Assembly: GCA_008330645.1 (NCBI GenBank)
Contig: VLTN01000045.1
Coordinates: 235,602 to 299,601 of the forward strand
Direction: 5' to 3'
DNA: 64,000 bases
DNA from: Cafeteria roenbergensis
Lineage: Eukaryota > Sar > Bigyra > Bicosoecida > Cafeteriaceae
Position numbers and translations under genes: made by a program. The notes under the pieces were generated by a model. It was not told the origin of the DNA, did not search any database, and saw only the letters and a program-made list of their open reading frames with translations. Positions 50,417 through 64,000 of the stretch are shown in pieces (the first letter of the stretch is position 1; each line of letters begins with the position of its first letter).

Positions 50417-52066
50417 TCACGCCACGGCGCACTCGCCGGACGAGACGCTCTCATGAGCCTCAGCGGAGAAAGCACGTGCACCGTCACGCCTGCAGCTTTG
50501 GGCGCTCGTCCGCCAGGCCAGGAGCCGAAACCGTCGCTCCCAAGGTGTCGGTGTTGTAAGCGCCTCGAGTAAGTCCGTGTGGCCAGAGAGCCGCAGCATC
50601 GCGAGGTTTGCCCAAACGGAGACACCAGACGACGGCACGGGCGCGCCGGCTTTCCGCAGCAGCCGAACTATCACGGTACTGCAACTCTGGAACGCCGCCA
50701 CGTCAAGCGGTGACTTGCCTTGCCTGTCAGGGATGCACGGGTCGGCGCCGGCGGAGAGCAGAAGGCGCAGGAGTTCGGTGTCTGGCTTGCGGCATGCGAT
50801 CAAGAGAGGCGTCGCGCCATTGTCCGTCCTGGCCTTGTTCACATCCGCCCCAGCCTCCACAAGCTGCCGCGCCACCGCGTCGTGGCCGTTCTCGCATGCG
50901 ATGAACAGGGGCGTCGCGCCATCGTATGTCGTGGACTTGCTCACATCCGCCCCAGCCTCCACAAGCAGCCGCGCCACCGCATCATGACCGTTCTCGCAAG
51001 CGATGAAAAGAGGCGTGGCGCCGTCGTCCGTCGTGGCCTTGTTCACGTCCGCCCCGGCCTCCACAAGCAGCCGCACCACCGCCTCGTGACCCTTCTGGCA
51101 TGCAGTGTAGAGAGGCGTCGCGCCGTTGTCTGGCGTGGCCTTGTTCACATCCGCCCCAGCTTCCACAAGCAGCTGCACCACCGCATCGTGACCGTTGTGG
51201 CAGGCGATGAGCAGAGGCGTCACGCCGTCGTCCGTCCTGGCCTTGTTCACATCCGCCCCAGCCTCCACAAGCAGCCGTGCCACCGCGTCGTGGCCCTTCT
51301 GGCATGCCCTGTAGAGAGGCGTCGCGCCGTCGCTCGTCCTGGCCTTGTTCACATCCGCCCCAGCCTCCACAAGCAGCCGCACCACCGCGTCGTGGCCGTT
51401 CTGGCATGCCCTGTAGAGAGGCGTCGCGCCGTCGCTCGTCCTGGCCTTGTTCACATCCGCACCAGCCTTCACAAGCAGCCGCACCACCGCATTGTGGCCG
51501 TTCCAGCATGCAGTGTAGAGAGGCGTCGTGCCGTCATCCGTCGTGGCCTTGTTCACATCCGCCCCAGCCACCACAAGCAGCTGCGCCACCGCATCGTGAC
51601 CGTTGTGGCATGCCATGAAAAGTGGCGTCGCGCCGTCGTTCGTCCTGGCCTTGTTCACATCCGCCCCAGCCTCCACAAGCAGCCGCACCACCGCATCGTG
51701 ACCGTCCTCGCATGCGATGAACAGGGGCGTCGCGCCACCGTCCGTCGTGGCCTTGTTCACATCCGCACCAGCCTCCACGAGCAGTCGCGCCACCGCATCG
51801 TGGCCGTTCCAGCATGCGTTGTAGAGAGGCGTCACGCCGATGTCCGTCGTGGCCTTGTTCACATCCGCCCCAGCCTCCACAAGCAGCCGCACCACCGCCT
51901 CGTGGCCGTCCTTGCATGCCAGCAAGAGAGGCGTCCGCCCCCGCCCGTCACAAGCGACATTAAGGCCTTGCTCAGCAGCAACGAGAGCTCCGAGCCGCAC
52001 AGCATCGCCGCGCCGCGCGGCCTCAAGCATTTCGCGCCCGAGTCCTGCGCCGTCACAGCAACGCAT
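50417..52066 (-). CDS. Ankyrin-repeat protein with 13 near-identical repeats
   Basis: A 549-residue intronless frame from ATG 52066. After a short start (MRCCDGAGLGREMLEAARRGD) come 13 ankyrin repeats of about 34 residues, each like DGATPLYTACQNGHDAVVRL followed by LVEAGADVNKA. The first eleven are nearly identical; the last two are diverged and cap the array. The C-terminal ~90 residues lack repeats (VSVWANLAMLRLSGHTDLLEALTT). It is a protein-binding scaffold; partner unknown. Because the repeats are almost identical in DNA, copy number is likely variable. An upstream segment (around 52080-52170) could code for ACPLCVQSLPQFDELELL, a possible Cys-containing first exon, but no good splice joins it. 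Confidence 0.85.
   Translation of the reverse strand: MRCCDGAGLGREMLEAARRGDAVRLGALVAAEQGLNVACDGRGRTPLLLACKDGHEAVVRLLVEAGADVNKATTDIGVTPLYNACWNGHDAVARLLVEAGADVNKATTDGGATPLFIACEDGHDAVVRLLVEAGADVNKARTNDGATPLFMACHNGHDAVAQLLVVAGADVNKATTDDGTTPLYTACWNGHNAVVRLLVKAGADVNKARTSDGATPLYRACQNGHDAVVRLLVEAGADVNKARTSDGATPLYRACQKGHDAVARLLVEAGADVNKARTDDGVTPLLIACHNGHDAVVQLLVEAGADVNKATPDNGATPLYTACQKGHEAVVRLLVEAGADVNKATTDDGATPLFIACENGHDAVARLLVEAGADVSKSTTYDGATPLFIACENGHDAVARQLVEAGADVNKARTDNGATPLLIACRKPDTELLRLLLSAGADPCIPDRQGKSPLDVAAFQSCSTVIVRLLRKAGAPVPSSGVSVWANLAMLRLSGHTDLLEALTTPTPWERRFRLLAWRTSAQSCRRDGARAFSAEAHESVSSGECAVA
50800..51945. repeat. 102-bp tandem coding repeat (ankyrin units)
   Basis: About eleven head-to-tail copies of a 102-bp unit with few substitutions; on the plus strand each contains a segment like cttgttcacatccgccccag. 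The similarity extends to third codon positions, pointing to recent unit duplication or homogenisation. Confidence 0.92.
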
Positions 52067-53168
52067 GGCCGTCGAGCTTGCTTGCCGCCCCTAGCCCCTG
52101 CCACAAGCAGCTCAAGCTCATCGAATTGCGGCAGGCTCTGGACACAGAGCGGGCATGCGCGAGCCATGCTGACAAACGCGGGCTGCGGCGGCATTGAAAG
52201 CCCAAACGGCATGGCAGTCTGCCGCCTCCCTGGCCAATGCTGCCTGGGCACCGCAGCAAGCCTCACCTGTCGGGTCTGCCATGCGATGGGGCTTCCAAGT
52301 GCCGAGGAGCTGCAGGGACGCGCTTGCGCTGGAGTGTCGTGTTCCGCGCTGTGAAGCAGCGGAGAGCAACTGTGAACGCTGGCAGAGCCGCCCGAAAATG
52401 CTTCCGACGAGCCCTGCTGAGCGTGATCGTCGGGAATTGTAGTCATGCACCTAGCAGTGGTCAAAGGGGCACCTGCTCGGTGCCCGGCGCCAGCGGGCGA
52501 GGAGTGGCAGTGCCTTGCTCGGAGACTGCTTCCACAGGGGCACTAACACCTCTCAAGCCACCTCCCAGCCTACCGCGGGATGGGCGGGCGGGTCACGCAT
52601 GCGGCTTCGCTCTCTCGCACAACCTCAAAGTCGACCGCAACGGGCCCTGGCGTGCTGTGCGAACGTTCGCACGGCACGGAAGGCAAAGCGAAGCGCACGC
52701 TGCGCGCGCCTTGCCGAAGAGCTGCTTGTCTTGGCCGCCAACGTAGGCGGGCACACTAGAGTTCGGGACCCGCTGGGTCACGCCGGTGGGAACCCCCATC
52801 ACGCTGTGGGGAGGCCGCATGGCCCAAGAGAGCGCCCAGACGATGCTGGGTGGCACATCTGTTCTTGCCAGGGAAGAATCTACGTGTGCGAACAAATATG
52901 AGCCCGTGTGGTCGTTACAGACTGCCTCCACGCTCCCCTCGCAGCCTGCAAAGAGCCGCATCCAGCTCCGTGCCGATCGCCAAAATATGTCTGAATCAGT
53001 GCTTGCTGCCGCATGGTTGTGCTTCGGGCAGCGGCGACTGAGCTCGCCAGACCAACGCAGAGCGGCTGGAGCCACGTAAATGGCAACGGCAGCAGCAAAC
53101 GCAAAACTGGGCTGAACCTCTTGGCTCGCCTCACTCGCACCCGCTTGCCGCCCTTCGCAACCGAGGAC
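52067..53168. other. Region of 1.1 kb without a supported gene
   Basis: It lies between two ankyrin genes that point away from each other. It should contain both promoters. Frames here are short or lack recognisable domains. GC is lower than in the left part of the window. Confidence 0.5.
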
Positions 53169-53412: not shown

Positions 53413-54247
53413 ATGAACATCGTTGGGGGGGGTCGAAAACTCGCGTCACCATACCACACACTCGATTCACAGACTCACCAATCACCAATCCAGCAACTCC
53501 ATCACCGATGAGTCACAAACCGCGCCAAACCCACAATCCCAAGTCTCAAATCCCAGATCCCTGCCATCACACTGCCTCGAGTCGCCACTCAGCCGCCCCT
53601 GCTCACCGCATACGCTCCACCTGCTGTCGCAGGTACTGCGTCTGCCCGATCAGCTGGGTCGCCAGTCCCTTGGCGATGACCTCGTTCAGCCTCGACAGCC
53701 AGCGGAAGGCCCAGCGCGCACGCTCCCTCGGCCGGTCGCCGAAGGCCGTGTCCGCCACCTTCTTGAGGAAGGCGAAGGCCGCCGGTCCCATGCGTCCCGT
53801 GGTCGTGATGACGAAGGGCACAATGGAGCTCAAGTTGTCCTTTGTAGCTGAGCTCTTCTTGTACTCCCTCATCTTGTCATTCTCACGGCGCTCGAGAAAG
53901 GCGTCCATGCTCTGCAGGCCCTGCGTCACGTAGGACTTGCTCACCGCCGAGGTGATCTGCACGTCGACGAGACAGGTGGTCTCGAAGTCGACGTGCACCC
54001 GCAGGTCCGGTCGCTTGCGCGCGGCCTCGCTGGACCCCGGCTGGGACCCGAAGCGCGTCTGCCCGTCCTGCCAGCTGGAGGGCTCCACCACCGACTGTAG
54101 TCCCGCCGAGCGCACCGCCGCGTGCAGTACGTCGCGGACGTCGTTGTGCGCCCGGATGGTGGAGCCCTTGCCGCAGCGGCAGCGCGCCAGGTGGTGTGCC
54201 ACGCCGAGACCCCGCCGATGTGGACGGTGCCGCTCGCGGTGGCGTCC
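53413..54247 (-). mobile_element. 5'-truncated copy A of an R2-like (RLE) non-LTR retrotransposon
   Basis: On the minus strand this is the last ~835 bp of the element whose long copy occupies 58915-64000. The 3' terminus on the plus strand reads atgaacatcgttgggg, shared with the other copies. It carries the end of the endonuclease ORF (53603 to about 54247), including the Zn-binding CRCGKGSTIRAHND and the RPDL...VDVQIT nuclease core, down to the same C-terminus QYLRQQVERMR. Homology stops abruptly at about 54247. Compared with the long copy it has a one-base deletion near 54200 (cacgccgagacc for cacgcccgagacc) plus a few substitutions. It is a dead-on-arrival insertion. Confidence 0.9.
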
Positions 54248-54873
54248 AGAACCAGCAGCCTCGCAGCGTTCAGCCCCGCGCCCTCGGGAGGGTTGAGCCC
54301 TGCGCCCCGGGACATGTTTGTGTGGCGCCGCACCCACGCCATGCGTCAAGCATCGGTGCCTGGCCTGCGTGTGGCGGCCCTAGCGCGTCTCGCTCAAGGC
54401 CCTGCCAGCGAGAGCTCTGCCGCGTGCAAGGGCTCTGCCGATTTTCGCGACTGCCAAGACGAATGCACTCTCTCGCGCGCCCGAGAGAGCAGCAAGGCGG
54501 CCGCCCGCTGCCCCGCACAGCTCCCCGCTCCTTCTTCCCGAGCTTGCTGCGCCCGTCTTGGGGCTGGTGCTGCTCGGCCCCGTGGATCGTGAGCTGCGGC
54601 GGAGGCGGCCGTTCCGTTTTGCAGGTCGCTCTCGCTGCCGCGGCGCCCGACGCAGCGCTGGCACCCGCCCTCGCAGTGCCTTCACGGCATGGTCGCAGCG
54701 TGCACGTTGCCGGCCATTTTGCTGGGCGGGGGTGACGCTGAGGGACGGCTGCAGCGTGCTCGCGCGCCGTGGTTTGTCGAAGACCGTTTGCTCTGCGTCC
54801 CATTGCGCCCCGCTCGCTGCCGCCCCTCCGCCGCAGAGCGCAGCGCCTGAGGCCACTGCCCACTCCCGCGACC
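54248..54873. other. Segment between retrotransposon copy A and the NTPase-nuclease gene
   Basis: These 626 bp hold no recognisable domain. The frame of the following gene is open from about 54769 but its first ATG, in a good context (ACCATGGC), is at 54874. Probably the promoter of that gene. Confidence 0.5.
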
Positions 54874-57800
54874 ATGGCAGACCACCCCCCGTCGTCTTCG
54901 TCATCGTCTTCATCCTCGTCCTCGTCTTCGTCGTTGCAAGTTTGGCAAAGCGGCCTGCGCGCCGCCAAGCGCGAGCGCGAGGGCGAGGGCGGTGTTGGCG
55001 GCGATGCCCCGGCTGGCAAGCGATCCCACCGAGAGGGAGTTGACAATGCCTCTGACTCTTCTGCCCAGCCCGCTGCGGAGAAGGGCCAGAGTCGAGCTGG
55101 AGCAGCGGATGAGCATCGTCCGGCAGAGCGCAAAGAGCACCAGGAGCGCAGCACGGAGGCGAGCATTGGCACCTATCACCGACTTGGAAGAAGCAGCGAT
55201 GCTGGGGCCGGTGGGCTTGCTGCAGCCGTACACGCAGGTGCCGGGGCAGCGGCGGCTTCCTCAGCCGCGACAGCTTCTCGTGGTATAGGCTCTGACAGTC
55301 TCTGTTCGGCTTGCGGCGGCACGGGTTCTCGCTCTGGTTCTCCCTCTGGCAATTCCTCCTCCAGTGCTGCTGCCGCCGCTGCCAGTGTAGCAGCTCCGCC
55401 CCGCAGTGCCGTGGCCCGTGGAGCAGGGGTTGGATTCCGCTCCGAGCCCGCTCTGCAAGCTGCAGAAGAGCAGGACGCACCCCCACTGTCAAGGAAAGAG
55501 GCTGGGCGTGACGTGATTGGCCTGATGTCCGACGCCCTGGATCTCAGCGAAGCCCCGCCTGCAGCGGCCAAAACCCGGGTGGTGAGAGCCAAACAAGCAA
55601 TTCAGTTCTTCCAAGAGCTTCGTGTCGCCGACGGGCTCAAGTCAACCGGCGAGCACAAGGACTTCTACGCTCTCCTGGGCCAGCTTGGCACCGCAAGCGG
55701 TAATATCAAGGCCGATGCCCCCATCGAAGTCGTGCTGAGAAAGGCTGAGGTGGCGCTGGAAGAGACAGTCGACGTAGATCAGCTGACCAAGTGGCACCGT
55801 CTTGGACACCTCCGGGGCGTCGCTGGAAAAGCGGCAACGAACCTGGCTGAGCCGTCCACCATGAAAACAGTGAGGAACCTCGCCAAGCATCTGCTTGAGG
55901 AGGCCGAGGAGCAGGAGAAAAAGGCCAAGCGCGAGGCCGAGGAGCAGGAGAAAAAGGCCAAGCGCGAGGCCGAGGAGCAGGAGGCGCTTCGAAGCCAGAT
56001 GCTCAAGACACTGGCAAATGTGGACTCGTCCATTTCTGCGATTCCTTCGGACTCCCTGTCCAAGGCCGCGGCTACGATGCACAAGTACACTCCGGACAAG
56101 GCAGCTGAACTCGACGCCGAGGCAGGCCTGACTGCTCTGGCCAATACCAAGGCCTGTGAAGCCTTTGCAGATCGCATCTGCAACATCATGCGCAGCGAAC
56201 ATGGCGTCGGGCCGGCGCTCGAGGCGGCTGGACTGAATCCAGAGATGATGTCTTTTGCCGCGCAGGCAGTCAAGGAGCCGCGATGGCTGCTCTGGGAGGG
56301 CTCACCCAACCGCTTGGACTTGGCGAGGTGGCTTGCCCTCGACATCGCAGCCCTCGCTCTCACTGGCGAAGGTGGGCCGCTCAATGGCCGGTGCGTCTTT
56401 GGTCCGCGAGGAGTTGGCAAGTCTTCTCTTCTGGTTGCGGGCTGTGTCGCTGCAGGAGTGTTCTCAAGGATCAAGTCGCTTCCAGCCGCCGGCCGGCCAG
56501 TGGTCCCGGTGTACGTTGACATGCTGCTAGCAACGTGGCTCTATGAGTTGTGTGCGGCCGACAGCGAGCACGCGTGGCTTAAACCGTCATCGCCACTCCC
56601 TTGCCTGCTGGACAGGGCTCTTCAGCTCGCAGGCCACAGACCTCGAGTCGAGGCAGAGCCGGATCTCTCCAGGTGGAAGCTTTATCCGTGGTTCGCGAAC
56701 CCGCAGCAAGTTTGCGAGTTCCTTGAAGCCAACAAGCTGAACATGCTGCTGGTCATGGACGAGGCAGACGAGCCCTACAAGAAGTTTGGCCAAATCATCG
56801 CGCGAGAGCTCGATCAACTGAGGGGCCGCTCGCCCCAGATGATCTACTACGTCTCTGGAAGCGCTGCGGCGATGCGCAACATTCTCTTCAACCCTGACCG
56901 TGTGGACACGGGGGTCTACGACGTCGAGAAGTTTTGGTCCAAGAAAAACCACGACGAAAAGCTCGTTCCTCTCGCGCCCCTTGAGCCCCTGTCGTCTCTC
57001 GAGGACCATGCAAAGGCCATCGTTGCGGCAGGGTCTGCGTTCTCGAACTTCTATTCCGATGCAACAAGGTTCCTCGCCAACAGCACGGTCGCGGAGGAGC
57101 GAGCGCGCTTCGGAAAGACAGTTCTCCGCGTCGGAGGTGTGCTTCGCGCCCTCCTCGTCAAGCCTGGGCACGCCCCCGAGAAGCCGCCGTTGGGATTTGA
57201 CAAGATGCGTGGTGACATCATTGCTACTGGGCATGGCCGGCAGCTTGCGTCGGTCTTTGCAGCCCACTTCAAGTCAGTTATCACGGGCTTGTGCCCCGAG
57301 ACGGTGCTGGACCAACTTGTGTCGCCATCAGTGGGCTTTCCAGCCCTCGGTCTTGACATTGGCAAGTTGTCGGCAAGGTTGTCGGAGGACAGCGGTGCGG
57401 CTGTTGCGGCAGAGGCTCTGATGCCCCCGTTGAGCATCCTCTCCGACTGTGGCGTGCTTACGCTAGCTGATGCCAAGTGGCAACCCGTCTCTTGGACCGC
57501 CGTTCTTTCAATCTTGCTTGTGGACGAGGGCGGTTGTTCACTGCCGTTCGAGGCGCGCGATGACCTCAGCCATGCCACAGTTGGTGCCACGACCACCGAG
57601 CCTGTTCTCGCTCAGGCCTTTTGCAAGAGCGCTGCCAAGTCTGCCCACTTTGTTGGAGCGGCAACTGAGGGTCAACGAAAGAGCCTGCTGAAGAGCCTTG
57701 AGCGGCTGTCGCTGGTTGATGACGCCGCCGTTGCGAAGGTTGCCGATCTCAAGTGGGACGATTTGCGGGAAGACTCTTCGGTGCTTCGAGAGGGGATGCT

Positions 57801-58353
57801 GTACAAGCCGTCTCCGGACAAGGGCGTGGACATCGTGCTTCTGGTTCGCGACCCCGGGTCCCGGCTCGTCCACCTTTTGCTGCTTCAAGCCAAAGCAACT
57901 TCATCCGGCGCAGCAGATGCAGACAAATCAACCGACGTATCCCTCACTGGCTGGAATACGATCGTCCCGGGATTCACGGCTCAGGCAAAGAGTTGGGGTG
58001 ACTTCCACCCCGTGTCGCTCTCTCTCCTGAGAGACGGCGAGTCCCTCGTGGTTTGGAACGTGGTGGTCACGAACAAGGACGTCACCAAGAGAGCATTGCA
58101 CGGCAGGGTGCCAGCTGAAATCGCCAAGCACGAGGGTGCTCTCAGAATGGCAATGTTCGGCGGTGTGGACGGAGCAGCAACGTCATCTTGCGGAAGAATC
58201 CACGGCCCGCACTGGGTTGTCGCTAATGGCGATCACCTGCTCAGTGGACTGCCGCCTGCTGTCCTTGACTGGGCCAGAAAGGTGAAGCGGCAAGCATGGG
58301 GCGGACACACAGCCGCAGAGGCAGACGGGGCCGCGGACCAGGCCGAAGCTTAA
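54874..58353 (+). CDS. P-loop NTPase with C-terminal PD-(D/E)XK-like nuclease domain (Crinkler/RHS-like)
   Basis: A 1159-residue intronless protein. Residues 1-20 hold poly-Ser; up to ~220 it is low-complexity. A helical part follows with a Glu/Lys coiled coil built of a repeated EEQEKKAKREA unit (about 345-375). The NTPase core has Walker A GPRGVGKS (510-517), a PVVPVYVDM strand and Walker B LLVMDEAD (Asp629/Glu630). The C-terminus has Glu in LREGMLY, Asp986 in KGVDIVLLV and LLLLQAKAT (Gln1005-Lys1007), the E...D...QxK order of restriction-like nucleases. This NTPase-nuclease layout is that of Crinkler/RHS-type proteins, whose trypanosome members are retrotransposon insertion hot spots. Here retrotransposon fragments flank it on both sides, the nearest 17 bp after the stop. 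The family call is inference; the NTPase is sure. Function (genome defence, transposon passenger or effector) is unknown. Confidence 0.75.
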   Translation: MADHPPSSSSSSSSSSSSSSLQVWQSGLRAAKREREGEGGVGGDAPAGKRSHREGVDNASDSSAQPAAEKGQSRAGAADEHRPAERKEHQERSTEASIGTYHRLGRSSDAGAGGLAAAVHAGAGAAAASSAATASRGIGSDSLCSACGGTGSRSGSPSGNSSSSAAAAAASVAAPPRSAVARGAGVGFRSEPALQAAEEQDAPPLSRKEAGRDVIGLMSDALDLSEAPPAAAKTRVVRAKQAIQFFQELRVADGLKSTGEHKDFYALLGQLGTASGNIKADAPIEVVLRKAEVALEETVDVDQLTKWHRLGHLRGVAGKAATNLAEPSTMKTVRNLAKHLLEEAEEQEKKAKREAEEQEKKAKREAEEQEALRSQMLKTLANVDSSISAIPSDSLSKAAATMHKYTPDKAAELDAEAGLTALANTKACEAFADRICNIMRSEHGVGPALEAAGLNPEMMSFAAQAVKEPRWLLWEGSPNRLDLARWLALDIAALALTGEGGPLNGRCVFGPRGVGKSSLLVAGCVAAGVFSRIKSLPAAGRPVVPVYVDMLLATWLYELCAADSEHAWLKPSSPLPCLLDRALQLAGHRPRVEAEPDLSRWKLYPWFANPQQVCEFLEANKLNMLLVMDEADEPYKKFGQIIARELDQLRGRSPQMIYYVSGSAAAMRNILFNPDRVDTGVYDVEKFWSKKNHDEKLVPLAPLEPLSSLEDHAKAIVAAGSAFSNFYSDATRFLANSTVAEERARFGKTVLRVGGVLRALLVKPGHAPEKPPLGFDKMRGDIIATGHGRQLASVFAAHFKSVITGLCPETVLDQLVSPSVGFPALGLDIGKLSARLSEDSGAAVAAEALMPPLSILSDCGVLTLADAKWQPVSWTAVLSILLVDEGGCSLPFEARDDLSHATVGATTTEPVLAQAFCKSAAKSAHFVGAATEGQRKSLLKSLERLSLVDDAAVAKVADLKWDDLREDSSVLREGMLYKPSPDKGVDIVLLVRDPGSRLVHLLLLQAKATSSGAADADKSTDVSLTGWNTIVPGFTAQAKSWGDFHPVSLSLLRDGESLVVWNVVVTNKDVTKRALHGRVPAEIAKHEGALRMAMFGGVDGAATSSCGRIHGPHWVVANGDHLLSGLPPAVLDWARKVKRQAWGGHTAAEADGAADQAEA

Positions 58354-58370
58354 AGTGTGACTGGTGTGAA

Positions 58371-58458
58371 TGAACATCGTTGGGGAGGGGCGAAAGCTCG
58401 CGTAGCCATACCACACACTCGATCCACAGACTCATCAAACTCCAAATCCAGCAGCTTG
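58371..58458 (-). mobile_element. Copy B: short, old 3' fragment of the same retrotransposon
   Basis: About 88 bp matching the 3' UTR end of the element (tgaacatcgttggggagggg then cgaaagctcgcg). It is the most diverged of the five copies. It starts 17 bp after the stop codon of the NTPase-nuclease gene. Confidence 0.75.
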
Positions 58459-58811
58459 ATAAACATCGTTGGGGGGGGGGTCAAGAACTCGCGTCACCAT
58501 GCCACACACTCGAGTCACAGACTCATCAAGCACAAATCCAGCAGCTCCATCACCGATGAATCACCAACCGCGCCAAACCCACAATCCCAAGTCTCAAGTC
58601 CCAGATCCCTGCCATCACACTGCCACGAGTCGCCACTCAGCCGACCCTGCTCATCGCATGGGCTCCACCTGCTGTCGCAGGTACTGCGTCTGCCCGATCA
58701 GCTGGGTCGCCAGTCCCTTGGCGATGACCTCGTTCAGCCTCGACAGCCAGCGGAAGGCCCAGCGCGCACGCTCCCTCGGCCGGTCGCCAAAGGCCATGTC
58801 CGCCACCTTCT
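58459..58811 (-). mobile_element. Copy C: 353-bp 3' fragment of the same retrotransposon
   Basis: Begins aaacatcgttgggg and includes the 3' UTR plus the last ~60 codons of the endonuclease ORF on the minus strand (GDRPRERARWAFRW, then LNEVIAKGLATQLIGQ). It stops at about 58811 in the codons for KVAD, directly followed by the next copy. Confidence 0.88.
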
Positions 58812-58813
58812 AA

Positions 58814-58914
58814 CGTGAACATCGTTGGGGGGGGGTCAAGAACTCGCGTCACCATACCACACACTCGATTCACAGACTCACCAATCACCAATCCAGCAAC
58901 TCCATCACCGATGA
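58814..58914 (-). mobile_element. Copy D: ~100-bp 3' fragment of the same retrotransposon
   Basis: Contains only the terminal UTR (gtgaacatcgttgggg to caccgatga) and is immediately followed by the long copy E. Sequence is closer to copies A and E than to B. Confidence 0.85.
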
Positions 58915-59104
58915 ATGAACATCGTTGGGGGGGGTCGAAAACTCGCGTAACCATACCACACACTCGATTCACAGACTCACCAATCACCAATCCAGCAACT
59001 CCATCACCGATGAGTCACAAACCGCGCCAAACCCACAATCCCAAGTCTCAAGTCCCAGATCACTCCCATCACACTGCCACGAGTCGCCACTCAGCCGCCC
59101 CTGC

Positions 59105-62100
59105 TCACCGCATACGCTCCACCTGCTGTCGCAGGTACTGCGTCTGCCCGATCAGCTGGGTCGCCAGTCCCTTGGCGATGACCTCGTTCAGCCTCGACAG
59201 CCAGCGAAAGGCCCAGCGCGCACGCTCCCTCGGCCGGTCACCAAAGGCCGTGTCCGCCACCTTCTTGAGGAAGGCGAAGGCCGCCGGTCCCATGCGTCCC
59301 GTGGTCGTGATGACGAAGGGCACAATGGAGCTCAAGTTGTCCTTTGTAGCTGAGCTCTTCTTGTACTCCCTCATCTTGTCATTCTCACGGCGCTCGAGAA
59401 AGGCGTCCATGTTCTGCAGGCCCTGCGTCACGTAGGACTTGCTCACCGCCGAGGTGATCTGCACGTCGACGAGACGGGTGGTCTCGAAGTCGACGTGCTC
59501 CCGCAGGTCCGGTCGCTTGCGCGCGGCCTCGCTGGACCCCGGCTGGGACCCGAAGCGCGCCTGCCCGTCCTGCCAGCTGGAGGGCTCCACCACCGACTGC
59601 AGTCCCGCCGAGCGCACCGCCGCGTGCAGGACGTCGCGGACGTCGTTGTGCGCCCGGATGGTGGAGCCCTTGCCGCAGCGGCAGCGCGCCAGGTGATGTG
59701 CCACGCCCGAGACCCCGCCGATGTGGACGGTGCCTCTCGCGGTGGTGTCCCGCTGCACGCACGCGCAGTTGATCGACACGCCGTCCGGCACCACGTGGTC
59801 GGCCTCGGAGGCTCCGATGCGGTAGCGGGTGACCACCGCGAACTCCTCGTCTGTGAGCCCGCGGGGCCCCATCATCGTGTTGCGGAGCCAGTAGTGCGTT
59901 CCCGGCACGCACGCCTCTCGGAACGCGACCAGGTCGCTCATGACGCGCAGCATGGCCGGGTTGTCGATGTTGGCGACACGCTTCTCCGGCGTGCCCTTGG
60001 CCAGCGCCTCGGCCCTGCAGCGTGCTGTGCAGGCCCTGCGCGCCTTGGCCAGACGGCGCAGGAAGACACACTCGTGCTTGATGCGCAGCATGTCGTCGTG
60101 GTGCAGCATCAACTTGCGCTGCCAGGGCGCCTCGGTCTGCTCGTTCGCCCGCGCCGTCACCCCGTCGCCGTACAGGCACTTCCGGAGCTTGGCCTTCAGC
60201 TCGCCCGGCAGCTTACCCAGGGTGTCGGGCAAGAAGCCCTCGAACCCTGTCGCTGCGGCCAGGCAGCGGGCTCCCTTGCAGGCCCTGATGAACTCCTCCA
60301 CCAGGTTTGCAGTTGCCTCCATGTCAACCGAGAACTCGTCGTCAGATCCGAGCTCCATCATCACCTCCAGCGCCAGCTCCTCGATCTCGGCGCGCAGCTC
60401 TTCCAGGCCCTCGACAGCCCCCGCGATGTCCGACCTCCACACGTGCGCCAGCTGGTAGCGCTTCTTCACCCTGGCGGCATGAAGGTCGGCCTCCTTGCCC
60501 ACGACGCAGTCCTTGTCCGGCCTGAAGTACCGTGCCTCGGTGCAGGCGTCCTTGTACTCCTTGCTGTCCCGCTCGTAGTCCCGGTAGGCTCCCTTGGCGA
60601 CCTCCTCGCATCGCAGCAGGATGTCGCCCACCTCCTTGGTCGCATCGCTGCGGTCTGAGCGCTTCAGCGCCCGCATCACGAGTTTCTTGAGCGAGATGCC
60701 CTTCCAATTGGGGTCGTTGCCATCCGCGTCCGCGTCGGGTCCGTCCCTGGCCAACCCGATCGCCGGTGTTCGCCTGACCGAGTAGACCTGTGCCGCATCC
60801 GCTCTCGGCTGTGCGGCATCAGATGTCTCTTGGCCGGTTGGAGCGCCAGCCGCACTAGCTGCCGCTGCGCCGCCGCCGCTCGTCGTCATCTCGGTCGCCG
60901 CTCCCGCCGCGCTGGCGGCAGCCGCACCTCCACCGCCCGTCTGGCCTCCGCCTGTCGGTGTTGGCTGATGCTCCGGTTCAGCCGCTCCCCCCGTACCGCT
61001 GACGAGCCAGCCGTCCAGCGTACCTGCAAGCTGTTGCCCGTGCGCCGGCCCCTCCTCGCAGTCCTCCTTGGACTCGCTCTCTCCGACCGCCGGGTGGTCC
61101 ACCCACGGCGTGCCGCCCGCTGCAGCAGCCGCCGCACCTGACTCATCCTCCGCTTCCGCCTCGCCGGCGTTGGCTGGTCCCGCTCCGGCACCACTCCCCG
61201 ACGCCGGCTCTCCTTCGCCTCCACCAGTGTCGGCCCCGTCAAGGGCCTCCTCCGGCGGTGGTGCCATCTCGAACCGCCCTTTCCGCATGTCCCGAACGGC
61301 CTCGATGAAGCCCGCTGTCGCCTCGAAGCGGAACTGCGCCACGCCAGGCAGGCCCATGCCGCCGGCTTTGCAGCCCTTGCTCAGCATCTTTGCCAGCCTC
61401 ATCTGAGCGTAGCCTCCCTTCTTCAAGGCCGGGTTGGACGCTGCCGATGCGAGCCGAGTCACACCGTCGGCTTCCCGGCCCAGGAGCGCCCACCACGCCT
61501 CCCGCCTTGCGTGCTCGTCCGGCAGCCCCCGAACAAGCGCCTCGATGGCCTTGGACATGGCCTCACGGAAGCCGTCCTCGGTCACCGTGCACATCTCGTC
61601 CGAGAGCGCGTGGCCGATCGCATCCAGCTCCGTCTTGTGCGCCACTGCCGACAGGTTGGCCAGCAGCGCCGCGTGGAACACCGCCAGCTCCTGGCCCGCC
61701 GCCGCACCCGCTGCTCTGTGCAGGTAGCTGAACTTCTGGCCCACCACTGACAGCAGCAGGTGGTGCGCCCGCTTGAGCCCGCAGACCTCGATGCCCGCGA
61801 GCAGGCGCTCCGCCGCCGGCCCGAACTCCTTCTCTAGTCGCTTCATCGAGTGCTCAAGTGCCACCTCCGGCGGGAGTTCCTCCCCCACAGGACACTGCAG
61901 CACCGCCACGCTCCGTTCGGTGAGGTGGCACCCCTCCAGCACCGAGGGTGGGGACCCTGGATCGTCCCTACTCCGCTTCATCACCCGCTGAATTCTGGCC
62001 TTCGTTTCCTCGCGCTGTCCACGTTTGCACAGCACCTGGGTCTTGCTGGTGTTCATCCGCAGCCCCACCGTGCTGAGCCGCTCGGCCAGCATCTGGGCTG

Positions 62101-63130
62101 CCTTGAAGGCGCTCCTCCTCGGGCCCACTAGCGTCGTGTCGTCGGCCATCTGCAAGATGAGCACATCTGGGAAGGCGCGCCTCACCTCGTCCACCAGGGG
62201 GTGCACTGCGATCGCAAACAGTGCGCCCGCTGCCGGGTCACCTTGACGCACGCCCCTGTTGGACTTCAGCTCAAAGACCTCGCCCTCGTCCGTGGCAAAG
62301 AAGAGCGGGCTGGACGAGCCGTACAGCGCCAGCACCGCCGGCACGAGCTTCTCGTCCAACCGCCGCACCTCCTCGATCATCGCGCGTCTGGAGACGGAGT
62401 TGTAGGCGTTGGCCATGTCCAACGCTACCACCACCGTTTTGGCTCCTCCCTCCTCGAACGCGGTGCGGACAGCATGGACCAGCCTGCACGACCCGTCTCG
62501 GCAGCCCAGGAACTGGAAGCGCAGCTGGTCCAGCAGTCCGTGCTTTCCCAGGATGGTGTTCACCACCTTGCCCACCAGCTTGCCCAGGCCCGATACCATG
62601 GCCACCGGCCTGATCTTGCCGTTGCCCTTGGGAATCGCCATCAGGGTTGACGACCCGAGGACCCTGCGCTCCTCGGCAGAGAGGTCGTTCCTCAACGCCC
62701 TTCGGACAAATGACACGAGCGCATCCAGGTCCTTCTCGGCGATGTTCTCCAGCTGCTTCGCGACCATGCCGTCCGGGCCCACGGCCTTCTTGTGCGGCAT
62801 CGACTGAATCGCCGCCGACACCATTTCCCGAAGCTCGGAGTCGGTGAGGTCCGGCGCTTCTCCCTCCACTGTGCCGTCGACCACCTCCTCCTCGCTCGGG
62901 TGCAGGCTCATCAACGCTTCCAGCGTCTCCATGTCCTGCGCGACGGTGCCCGCCGATGCCATGCTCTTCGCCAGGTCCTTGGCGGAAGTGCCGTTTTGAC
63001 GCCGCAGATACGCCTTCAGGGCCGCTACCGTGGTGAACTGCACCCTTATTCCCGCCGCTTGCTCGACGGTCGGGTGGCCCTCCGCGTTGCCTCTGCGCCC
63101 AGCACCCGCCAGGGACGCCGCCGCTGCCAT
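59105..63130 (-). CDS. Retrotransposon ORF2: reverse transcriptase with C-terminal restriction-like endonuclease
   Basis: A 1341-residue intact ORF from ATG 63130 (the frame is open back to 63361). RT motifs run in order: GKIRPVAMVSGLGKLVGKVV, LRFQFLGCRDG, VVVALDMANAYNSVSRRAM, VRQGDPAAGALFAIA and the catalytic ILQMADDTTL (Asp330/331). A Gly/Ala-rich linker follows (about 690-790). The C-terminal part has a long helical region, then VPDGVSINCACVQ, the Zn-type HHLARCRCGKGSTIRAHND and the nuclease core RPDL...RLVDVQIT. This is the domain order of target-primed retrotransposons such as R2, which nick DNA with the RLE and prime cDNA synthesis there. RLE elements often insert site-specifically, which may explain the stack at 58371-58915. 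It overlaps the end of ORF1 only as open frame; the ATG lies 47 bp after the ORF1 stop. Confidence 0.92.
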   Translation of the reverse strand: MAAAASLAGAGRRGNAEGHPTVEQAAGIRVQFTTVAALKAYLRRQNGTSAKDLAKSMASAGTVAQDMETLEALMSLHPSEEEVVDGTVEGEAPDLTDSELREMVSAAIQSMPHKKAVGPDGMVAKQLENIAEKDLDALVSFVRRALRNDLSAEERRVLGSSTLMAIPKGNGKIRPVAMVSGLGKLVGKVVNTILGKHGLLDQLRFQFLGCRDGSCRLVHAVRTAFEEGGAKTVVVALDMANAYNSVSRRAMIEEVRRLDEKLVPAVLALYGSSSPLFFATDEGEVFELKSNRGVRQGDPAAGALFAIAVHPLVDEVRRAFPDVLILQMADDTTLVGPRRSAFKAAQMLAERLSTVGLRMNTSKTQVLCKRGQREETKARIQRVMKRSRDDPGSPPSVLEGCHLTERSVAVLQCPVGEELPPEVALEHSMKRLEKEFGPAAERLLAGIEVCGLKRAHHLLLSVVGQKFSYLHRAAGAAAGQELAVFHAALLANLSAVAHKTELDAIGHALSDEMCTVTEDGFREAMSKAIEALVRGLPDEHARREAWWALLGREADGVTRLASAASNPALKKGGYAQMRLAKMLSKGCKAGGMGLPGVAQFRFEATAGFIEAVRDMRKGRFEMAPPPEEALDGADTGGGEGEPASGSGAGAGPANAGEAEAEDESGAAAAAAGGTPWVDHPAVGESESKEDCEEGPAHGQQLAGTLDGWLVSGTGGAAEPEHQPTPTGGGQTGGGGAAAASAAGAATEMTTSGGGAAAASAAGAPTGQETSDAAQPRADAAQVYSVRRTPAIGLARDGPDADADGNDPNWKGISLKKLVMRALKRSDRSDATKEVGDILLRCEEVAKGAYRDYERDSKEYKDACTEARYFRPDKDCVVGKEADLHAARVKKRYQLAHVWRSDIAGAVEGLEELRAEIEELALEVMMELGSDDEFSVDMEATANLVEEFIRACKGARCLAAATGFEGFLPDTLGKLPGELKAKLRKCLYGDGVTARANEQTEAPWQRKLMLHHDDMLRIKHECVFLRRLAKARRACTARCRAEALAKGTPEKRVANIDNPAMLRVMSDLVAFREACVPGTHYWLRNTMMGPRGLTDEEFAVVTRYRIGASEADHVVPDGVSINCACVQRDTTARGTVHIGGVSGVAHHLARCRCGKGSTIRAHNDVRDVLHAAVRSAGLQSVVEPSSWQDGQARFGSQPGSSEAARKRPDLREHVDFETTRLVDVQITSAVSKSYVTQGLQNMDAFLERRENDKMREYKKSSATKDNLSSIVPFVITTTGRMGPAAFAFLKKVADTAFGDRPRERARWAFRWLSRLNEVIAKGLATQLIGQTQYLRQQVERMR

Positions 63131-63177
63131 GGTGCCATGCTGTAAGGTGGGCTCGAGCGCCACCGGCACGTGCTCGC

Positions 63178-64000
63178 TCACCGCCTTGCGCTGCCGCAGT
63201 TGTCCGCGGCAAAGGCCTCGCCGAAGGTGCACTGCCGGAGCAGCGCCTTGATGTACCACTGCACCCACTTCTTGGAGGGACATCCGTGTCTCAGAAAGGC
63301 TCCCTTGGCGAGGCTGTCCGGAGAGCTGGTGGAGCACCGCTTGCACCGCCCGTCCCCACACGCCCTCTCTCCGTCGGAGAGTGGCGTCTCGTTGCCTCCT
63401 GCTTCCGCCATCGCTCCCGTCACGTCCTCCGCGTCATCTCCCTCCAATCCGTGGCTTGCATCCATGCCACCCTCCTCGCCCGTCGGTGGCTCCGCTGTCC
63501 GGTTCGCTCCGGCCAACTGCCCTGCGACTCCTGCCGCCGCCGGCACCTCCACCTCGAGCTGCGGCATGGTGCTGTGAACCTGTCCTACACTCGGGTCCAC
63601 CGCCACGTTTGCAGCCGATGGGCCCAGCTCTCCACCAGTTGCGCCCGCCTCCTCCGTCGACTCGTCCTCCTCCCTACTCGCCTCCTCATCATCCGCCGCC
63701 GGGTCATCCTCCACCTCCCCCGATTCACCACTGTCCACCGTCGACCCCTCTAGCCCCGCACTGGCTGCGCTGTCGCCCGCCAGCGACCCGTCCTCCTCCT
63801 CGTCCGAGGCACCATCATCCTCTGGCGTCTCGCTCCTCGGACTCCATCCTCCGTCGTCCATTGTCTCCTCGACTTGGTCCTGGCTGGCTGCGCTGTCGCC
63901 CGACATCTGCCAGTCCTCCTCCTCATTCGCCTCGCCGTCGTCCTCCGACCCCTCGTCACTGGCCTCGTCCGTTGTGCCATAGTCCACGGAGCCTCTGGTC
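63178..64000 (-). CDS. Retrotransposon ORF1 (acidic, with C-terminal Cys cluster), 5' end outside window
   Basis: The frame is open from the right edge to a stop at 63178-63180. The visible ~275 residues are extremely acidic and contain a duplicated block (about 60 residues) marked by GDSAAS, seen as SGDSAASQDQVEE and AGDSAASAGLEG. The end has a Cys/His cluster, ACGDGRCKRC followed by FLRHGCPSKKWVQWYIKALL, possibly zinc-binding. No standard ORF1 RNA-binding (RRM or CCHC gag-like) domain is seen. The ORF2 frame overlaps it for 184 bp in a different frame, so ORF2 may be made by reinitiation or frameshifting. Confidence 0.7.
   Translation of the reverse strand, partial: TRGSVDYGTTDEASDEGSEDDGEANEEEDWQMSGDSAASQDQVEETMDDGGWSPRSETPEDDGASDEEEDGSLAGDSAASAGLEGSTVDSGESGEVEDDPAADDEEASREEDESTEEAGATGGELGPSAANVAVDPSVGQVHSTMPQLEVEVPAAAGVAGQLAGANRTAEPPTGEEGGMDASHGLEGDDAEDVTGAMAEAGGNETPLSDGERACGDGRCKRCSTSSPDSLAKGAFLRHGCPSKKWVQWYIKALLRQCTFGEAFAADNCGSARR

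Follow-up and report, generated by a model that had tools for sequence, protein, structure and literature searches.

Analysis of a 64,000-nucleotide (nt) window of Cafeteria roenbergensis DNA (VLTN01000045.1) revealed an open reading frame (ORF) for an NTPase with a nuclease-like C-terminus, flanked by minus-strand copies of one non-long-terminal-repeat (non-LTR) retrotransposon, a long interspersed nuclear element (LINE), with copy A on the left and copies B to E on the right, as the initial annotation had described. Comparison with the assembly as a whole (36,303,456 bases in 167 contigs, from a diploid genome) indicated that the element is probably a chromosome-end retrotransposon, its copies lying mostly at contig ends, with their 3′ ends inward and their 5′ ends outward, and NTPase-nuclease-like genes situated between LINE copies appear to be copied from end to end. 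The whole reading, in which a chromosome-end LINE and an NTPase-nuclease-like gene family are spread between ends by recombination, has in our estimate a probability of about 0.72.

The window is the end of contig C45 (299601 bases); other contigs are C-numbered, extracted loci are L-numbered, and element coordinates (E1-E5086) are defined by copy E. The final base of the window is the final base of the contig, and copy E is therefore incomplete. The sequence that joins the LINE tail and carries the gene is referred to as cargo. The features of the locus are as follows.

53413..54247, minus strand: LINE copy A, the element's 3′ 835 nt (E4251-5086), abutting the NTPase cargo at 54247/54248
54248..54873, no strand assigned: cargo region 5′ of the NTPase ORF; the homologous stretch adjoins a LINE tail at C12, C82 and C13
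54874..58353, plus strand: ORF of 1159 amino acids (aa), NTPase with a nuclease-like C-terminus
55444..55917, plus strand: conserved N-terminal domain, with 46 matching places across the genome
56401..56424, plus strand: Walker A motif GPRGVGKS
57829..57894, plus strand: nuclease-like D...QxK motif (D...LLLLQAK), a sequence motif only
58370..58453, minus strand: LINE copy B, 3′ end alone (E5004-5086), of the GGGGAGG sub-lineage
58459..58811, minus strand: LINE copy C (E4736-5086)
58816..58914, minus strand: LINE copy D (E4988-5085)
58915..64000, minus strand: LINE copy E (E1-5086), cut by the contig end
59108..63361, minus strand: reverse transcriptase (RT) ORF of copy E, 1418 aa (RVT_1, E value 3.4e-21)
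62015..62635, minus strand: RVT_1 domain of copy E, residues 243-449

The element lies mostly at contig ends, largely in one orientation

The RT is of the non-LTR type, its best PDB matches being an R2 protein (E value 8.9e-05) and LINE-1 ORF2 (E value 1.2e-04). An RPD...D motif, a candidate sign of a restriction-like endonuclease domain, was read by eye in the element's protein, whose C-terminal 431 aa gave no Pfam match. The 191-nt 3′ region of the element folded no better than its shuffles (z 1.18).

The 3′ end of the element was tracked by a 17-base tag, which occurred 268 times in the assembly (152 forward and 116 reverse; the reversed control occurred 0 times), and positions were analysed for the 100 of these 268 that were listed, in contig order from C1 to C36. 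Ninety of the 100 lay within 30 kb of a contig end, and 88 of these 90 had the 5′ end of the element outward; the two facing the wrong way are both at the left end of C10 (11392 and 12030, plus strand). Among the matches listed for C1-C36, which have 72 ends, orientation was consistent at 32 of 33 occupied ends, nine contigs carried the element at both ends, and 39 ends were without a tag, the listing for C36 being possibly incomplete. The extracted ends consist of head-to-tail arrays of 5′-truncated copies, mostly 95-98% identical to copy E.

Some long LINE copies contain a 72-bp tandem repeat in their 5′ part (L023 1596-2990, 19.3 copies; L026 1-530, 7.4 copies), recalling the variable number tandem repeats (VNTRs) reported for FoTeRs (PMC12857005). 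At L016 4807-5621 (C99), a LINE tail of about 261 nt is present in three tandem copies with 16-bp spacers, a local duplication.

Telomere-like fragments lie at the junctions

Words resembling TTAGG were found within 40 nt of the junction, with the G strand outward, at 14 of 79 distinct junctions and on the opposite strand at none of the 79, compared with 1.3% of random 40-mers from the same loci; two of the 14, at L012 and the first at L018, are weak. At most junctions the sequence finishes with TGA or ATGA, present once or a few times; three of the 79 lack these units. The genome also contains a TERT gene on C17 (L028, C17:528088-531237), with a 1916-aa open frame and two in-order Telomerase_RBD pieces that scored 21.5 and 19 bits singly, below the cut-off, and 33.9 bits together, against a cut-off of 25.

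The NTPase genes form a family linked to the element

The core protein had 29 matches in the genome and the N-terminal domain 46, some of these 46 places possibly being alleles or two pieces of one gene. For the 35 places on contigs of known length (11 of the 46 are on contigs of unknown length), the 3′ end of the gene pointed toward the nearer contig end in 30. A same-strand element tag was present within 4.5 kb downstream of 10 of the 18 family places on C1-C35, with a tag on either side at 12 of the 18 and an opposite-strand tag at none. This genome-wide association between paralogues and retrotransposon, which the initial annotation had anticipated, represents a clear enrichment, since 2000 random placements averaged 0.1 such places and never exceeded 2. 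When placement was matched for end distance and outward orientation, the average was 2.2 and the highest count 6, indicating that the link between gene and element is stronger than shared end location alone predicts, with the limit that some of the 18 places are copies of one another, counted separately, and are not independent events.

Two groups of family members were noted inside contigs. The cluster at 227-249 kb of C27 (L037 and L038), more than 200 kb from the contig end, contains two LINE tags and five matches to the domain, and nearly identical gene-LINE junctions recur there at a distance of 13.1 kb. Three members at 189-201 kb of C46 lie about 100 kb in from the nearer end and are oriented inward, and could possibly mark former ends, fusions or misassembly.

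Cargo meets the element at recurrent breakpoints

Cargo starts exactly at E3788 in seven loci; it starts at E4251 in the window and, at the identical breakpoint, in C12 and C13, and at E4253 in C82. In a survey of the 83 copies whose 5′ end lies inside an extracted locus, there were 59 distinct breakpoints; the sixfold recurrence of E1 is an artefact of copy E being cut there, and some other breakpoints recurred two or three times, mostly inside one locus. Because the breakpoint between copy A and the sequence upstream of the gene recurs at other contig ends, the gene was not simply caught between two independent insertions; the initial annotation was correct in placing the gene between copies. 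In six cargo tails the 3′ end is visible, and the inner flank differs in each of them.

On the other side of the gene, the first right-hand copy in the window lies close to the stop codon, about 13-17 nt away depending on how the AATGA tail is counted, in agreement with the initial annotation. Among the gene ends read, a minority of the 46 places, 12 with an element and the one at C55 had their junction at the stop codon or beyond it; C12 and C13 are cut later in the gene, and the end at C34 showed no element within the 735 nt read. The truncated gene copies at C12 (at the equivalent of window position 57598) and C13 are followed by a new element 3′ end, and at C27 the stop codon lies inside the AATGA tail of the abutting element, where C30 and C76 retain AATGAACATC; both the truncated copies and the C27 stop are the expected residue of end erosion followed by capping. 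The attachment point of the next element is common to C45, C11, C53, C82 and C4, with three kinds of attached copy, a pattern that fits either retrotransposition of a unit or recombination.

LINE tails and cargo have different histories

The seven cargo tails were scattered in a tree of 48 tails, except for L048, which grouped with L049. Tails of the E3788 type had identities to ordinary copies of 0.915 and 0.952 in the two cargo-adjacent windows, where ordinary copies matched each other at 0.972 and 0.974, and farther in they matched ordinary copies at the ordinary level. The cargo of L013 and L017 is 97.5% identical over the distal 2989 nt and 90.9% identical over the 1.9 kb beside the tail, and their tails are 85% identical in the first 150 nt and 95-99% beyond. 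Similarly, identity between the window and C12 is about 97% in the gene and 90% in the cargo beside the tail. These profiles suggest that sequence around the fusion point is older than that on either side, and that outer gene and inner tail have both been exchanged.

A single shared history of tail and cargo, of the kind expected for a unit of the MoTeR2 type, is at variance with the tail tree, the tail ages and the mosaics. Disagreement between the histories of tail and cargo therefore makes recombination between ends, perhaps by break-induced replication, the best explanation for the spread of the genes.

The protein retains conserved motifs and is under selection

The Walker A motif GPRG(V/A)GK, the DE of Walker B and the C-terminal D...QxK recur between family members at 26-30% identity. 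The first D of D...QxK was invariant in alignment A1 and absent from the invariant list of A2; nonetheless, GVD...Q(A/S)K can be read directly in the rows of both classes. A third class (C55), missed by the pattern search, was read by eye to have GPRGSGKT and an ADAVAV...VQVK end. Walker A and the C-terminal D...QxK, both recognized in the initial annotation, are common to three divergent classes, counting the one read by eye. D...QxK is a candidate motif of the PD-(D/E)XK type, and a nuclease fold of the C-terminus is plausible.

Profile searches placed the proteins in no named family. Pfam gave only AAA matches for the NTPase proteins, all below the cut-off (the best being AAA_16, E value 4.4e-05); searches of the family against PDB profiles gave nothing below an E value of 0.4; NCBIfam gave only weak matches for the window protein (the best reached 17.8 bits, with an E value of 0.00092, where the cut-off is 150) and no match for L013; and PADLOC had no match for either of these two. 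Among pattern matches, 0 of 39 in viral contigs and 0 of 589 in genome contigs were confirmed as relatives of the NTPase core. The kinship with trypanosome RHS proteins that had been suggested was not borne out, as RHSP was not among the Pfam matches up to an E value of 10 for three family proteins, nor was any Crinkler family or header; RHSP and Crinkler are the Pfam families of the RHS and Crinkler proteins.

The ratio of nonsynonymous to synonymous substitution rates (dN/dS) over the core was 0.33-0.52 in all ten pairs of five paralogues, a figure that is rough owing to exchange between gene copies. These values indicate that the proteins are under purifying, if relaxed, selection, and selection on the NTPase-nuclease-like gene weakens the view of it as a dead passenger. 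The gene at C11 is a mosaic, with an N-terminus like that of the C30/C76 class and a C-terminus of the window's class, and modules have therefore been shuffled between family members.

Spread between chromosome ends and alternative explanations

We propose that reverse transcription places the LINE on the exposed 3′ end left by chromosome erosion, to which telomerase may sometimes first add a fraction of a TTAGGG-like unit, and that the element would in this way heal and extend ends alongside telomerase. Recombination between chromosome ends would take place within LINE tails as well as within the cargo: an eroded end finishing in a LINE tail could invade a homologous tail elsewhere and copy everything outward, including the gene. 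Break-induced replication or gene conversion of this kind would carry the gene from one end to another and rearrange its modules, and would explain the different inner flanks and the old fusion stretch. The sandwiched gene in the window would be accounted for because family genes sit among end-stacked copies and are copied between ends. The protein may be an NTPase-gated nuclease acting on nucleic acid, and could serve either the chromosome-end element or the cell, where defence against incoming DNA is one possible role.

Several observations weigh against spread by recombination between chromosome ends. Contig ends are not proven chromosome ends, and 10 of the 100 listed tags are internal, in addition to the two of the 90 end tags that face the wrong way. 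The two-unit TTAGGG tract TTAGGGTTAGGG occurs nowhere in the assembly, and no four-unit TTAGGG or TTTAGGG tract (allowing up to one mismatch) was found in it, other repeat types not having been searched. For the genes, 5 of the 35 family places face inward, all at least 29 kb from an end, and 15 of the 35 lie more than 30 kb from an end (16 of 35 without C59, which is at 29.3 kb and faces inward); because the genome is diploid, some places may be alleles. Recurrent breakpoints are not confined to cargo, as E3923, E4602, E4945 and E4988 are each shared by two loci that lack the gene, and in a copy at C25 the break falls at E4249, next to a sequence with no cargo match. With respect to the histories, the tail tree was drawn without support values, the gradient in E4251-type tails is slight (0.955 versus 0.964), cargo tails are at least as close to ordinary copies as to each other, and part of the identity shift between L013 and L017, and between the window and C12, falls within the cargo, so that tails are not the sole site of exchange.

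An unlikely alternative, which we retain as a rival, is that the cargo unit is a non-autonomous retroelement, similar to MoTeR2 of Magnaporthe oryzae, composed of a LINE 3′ tail and an antisense NTPase gene, with its 5′ end just beyond the gene's stop codon, and mobilised in trans by the LINE RT. Such a unit would account for the common breakpoints E3788 and E4251 in front of six different inner flanks, for the new LINE 3′ ends that follow truncated cargo copies, and for the attachment point shared by C45, C11, C53, C82 and C4 with three kinds of copy attached. However, the cargo tails form no clade, and E3788-type tails are older beside the cargo, which is unexpected of one RNA lineage barring later conversion or template switching; the tail tree and the tail ages thus oppose one chimeric retrotransposed unit as the only mode of spread. 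Another possibility, that the LINE inserts preferentially beside or into NTPase genes, as at the RHS hot spot, would agree with the excess over end-matched placement of same-strand tags within 4.5 kb downstream (10 of 18 places), but we regard it as highly improbable, given that there are 268 tags and 46 gene places, that many arrays have no gene, that in the members read (a minority of the 46) no element was inserted just after the P-loop, and that gene-LINE junctions are common to paralogues, indicating that they are inherited.

The positions themselves might instead be an effect of assembly, since contigs break at repeats and any repeat would then show at contig ends, and 9 of the 14 contig ends with a known last base do finish inside the element, a point that also counts against chromosome-end spread. 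Breaks at internal repeats should leave both orientations, whereas 32 of the 33 occupied ends among the matches listed show one, and the telomere-like bits are strand-specific, making this explanation very hard to sustain. Compatible with recombination between chromosome ends is the idea, which we rate as rather unlikely, that the NTPase-nuclease is a telomere-linked accessory gene that aids end maintenance or spread of the LINE. Its outward orientation, co-localisation with the element and purifying selection would be in keeping with such a role, but the Pfam matches of the NTPase proteins included no helicase family. One could speculate further on a two-part system in which ends are healed and extended by the LINE, while the linked nuclease acts at ends that are broken or foreign and in this way promotes end-to-end copying, or defends ends; the gene would then be a co-selected accessory and not a passenger.

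Comparison with known systems

By analogy, the closest systems appear to be MoTeR, FoTeR with telomere-linked helicases (TLHs), and Terminons. MoTeR1 and MoTeR2 of M. oryzae (PMC7367193) are likewise non-LTR elements with 5′ ends toward the chromosome end, head-to-tail arrays and 5′ truncations; their copies are separated by TTAGGG remnants of half a unit or more, and break-induced replication has been documented. They also include a second element that shares only terminal sequence with the RT element. In Cafeteria, by comparison, the element and its partner have a long 3′ tail of 0.8-1.3 kb in common, that partner is a family of antisense genes matching 46 places, TTAGGG tracts are present as fragments only, and the host is a stramenopile. 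FoTeR and the TLHs of Fusarium oxysporum (PMC12857005) offer a telomeric non-LTR element with upstream VNTRs and a co-located chromosome-end gene family, whereas the partner in Cafeteria is an NTPase with a nuclease-like C-terminus that meets LINE tails at recurrent breakpoints. TLHs in fungi have been suggested to help end maintenance or element spread; a RecQ-type helicase domain, which defines them, was not seen in the Cafeteria NTPase proteins, whose Pfam matches included no helicase family. Terminons of bdelloid rotifers (PMC6431247) resemble the Cafeteria arrays in having copies 5′-truncated by short telomeric repeats and arranged head to tail, often with captured host genes, but Terminons are Penelope-like and endonuclease-deficient, while the Cafeteria RT best matches R2 and LINE-1 proteins.

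The RHS genes described in PMC7563717 are an ATP-binding-motif family that is partly subtelomeric, mosaic by recombination and LINE-linked, features shared with the Cafeteria family. In T. brucei, the RHS insertion hot spot falls within the coding region, directly after the ATP/GTP motif (PMC7563717), whereas in the Cafeteria gene ends read the element is at or after the stop codon; this difference, together with the lack of an RHSP match in Pfam, speaks against the RHS-type hot spot put forward initially. The link between gene and LINE is better explained by common chromosome-end location and recombination, and no insertion preference is needed. Crinkler/CR proteins (PMC5289972) resemble the family in having a common N-terminal part with varied NTPase and nuclease-like C-termini, a likeness seen here in motifs alone, and the Cafeteria family had no Crinkler match in Pfam.

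Relative to MoTeR, FoTeR and Terminons, what looks novel in Cafeteria is the stramenopile host, a 46-place family attached at recurrent points of the LINE tail and an NTPase-nuclease-like partner. Few lineages, namely green algae, Giardia, fungi, insects, rotifers and a lizard, are listed in PMC10088271 as having telomere-associated retrotransposons. A bicosoecid stramenopile that combines a telomerase gene with chromosome ends built of retrotransposons and a gene family coupled to them would extend this list by one lineage. It would also offer a general reason for NTPase-nuclease families accompanying retrotransposons, in that both inhabit, and are exchanged at, chromosome ends. The main texts of the genome papers PMC8547959 and PMC6972860 contain no word beginning with "telomer" (the full file of PMC8547959 contains two), and among the papers listed by literature searches on Cafeteria, titles and abstract openings pointed to none on its telomeres.

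Host and neighbouring features

The system had been called algal; the host, Cafeteria roenbergensis (now C. burkhardae), is a heterotrophic bicosoecid, and the chlorophyll a/b-binding family (Chloroa_b-bind) had no match in its genome, with one of 14 control genomes (Synechococcus) matched.

Just inside the gene-LINE region, an ankyrin-repeat ORF of 549 aa (window 50417-52066, minus strand) contains a 102-bp DNA repeat in 11.3 copies of about 85% identity. A second repeated stretch, at window 52586-52905, is 86% identical at the C11 end (L027 3316-3631), and a stretch similar by eye lies downstream of the genes at C59 (L042) and C55 (L045). C55 also carries an RT-RNaseH ORF (L020 7067-9634), with matches to RT_RNaseH_2 and RVT_1, both below their cut-offs, that resembles the Ngaro elements described for Cafeteria in PMC8547959.

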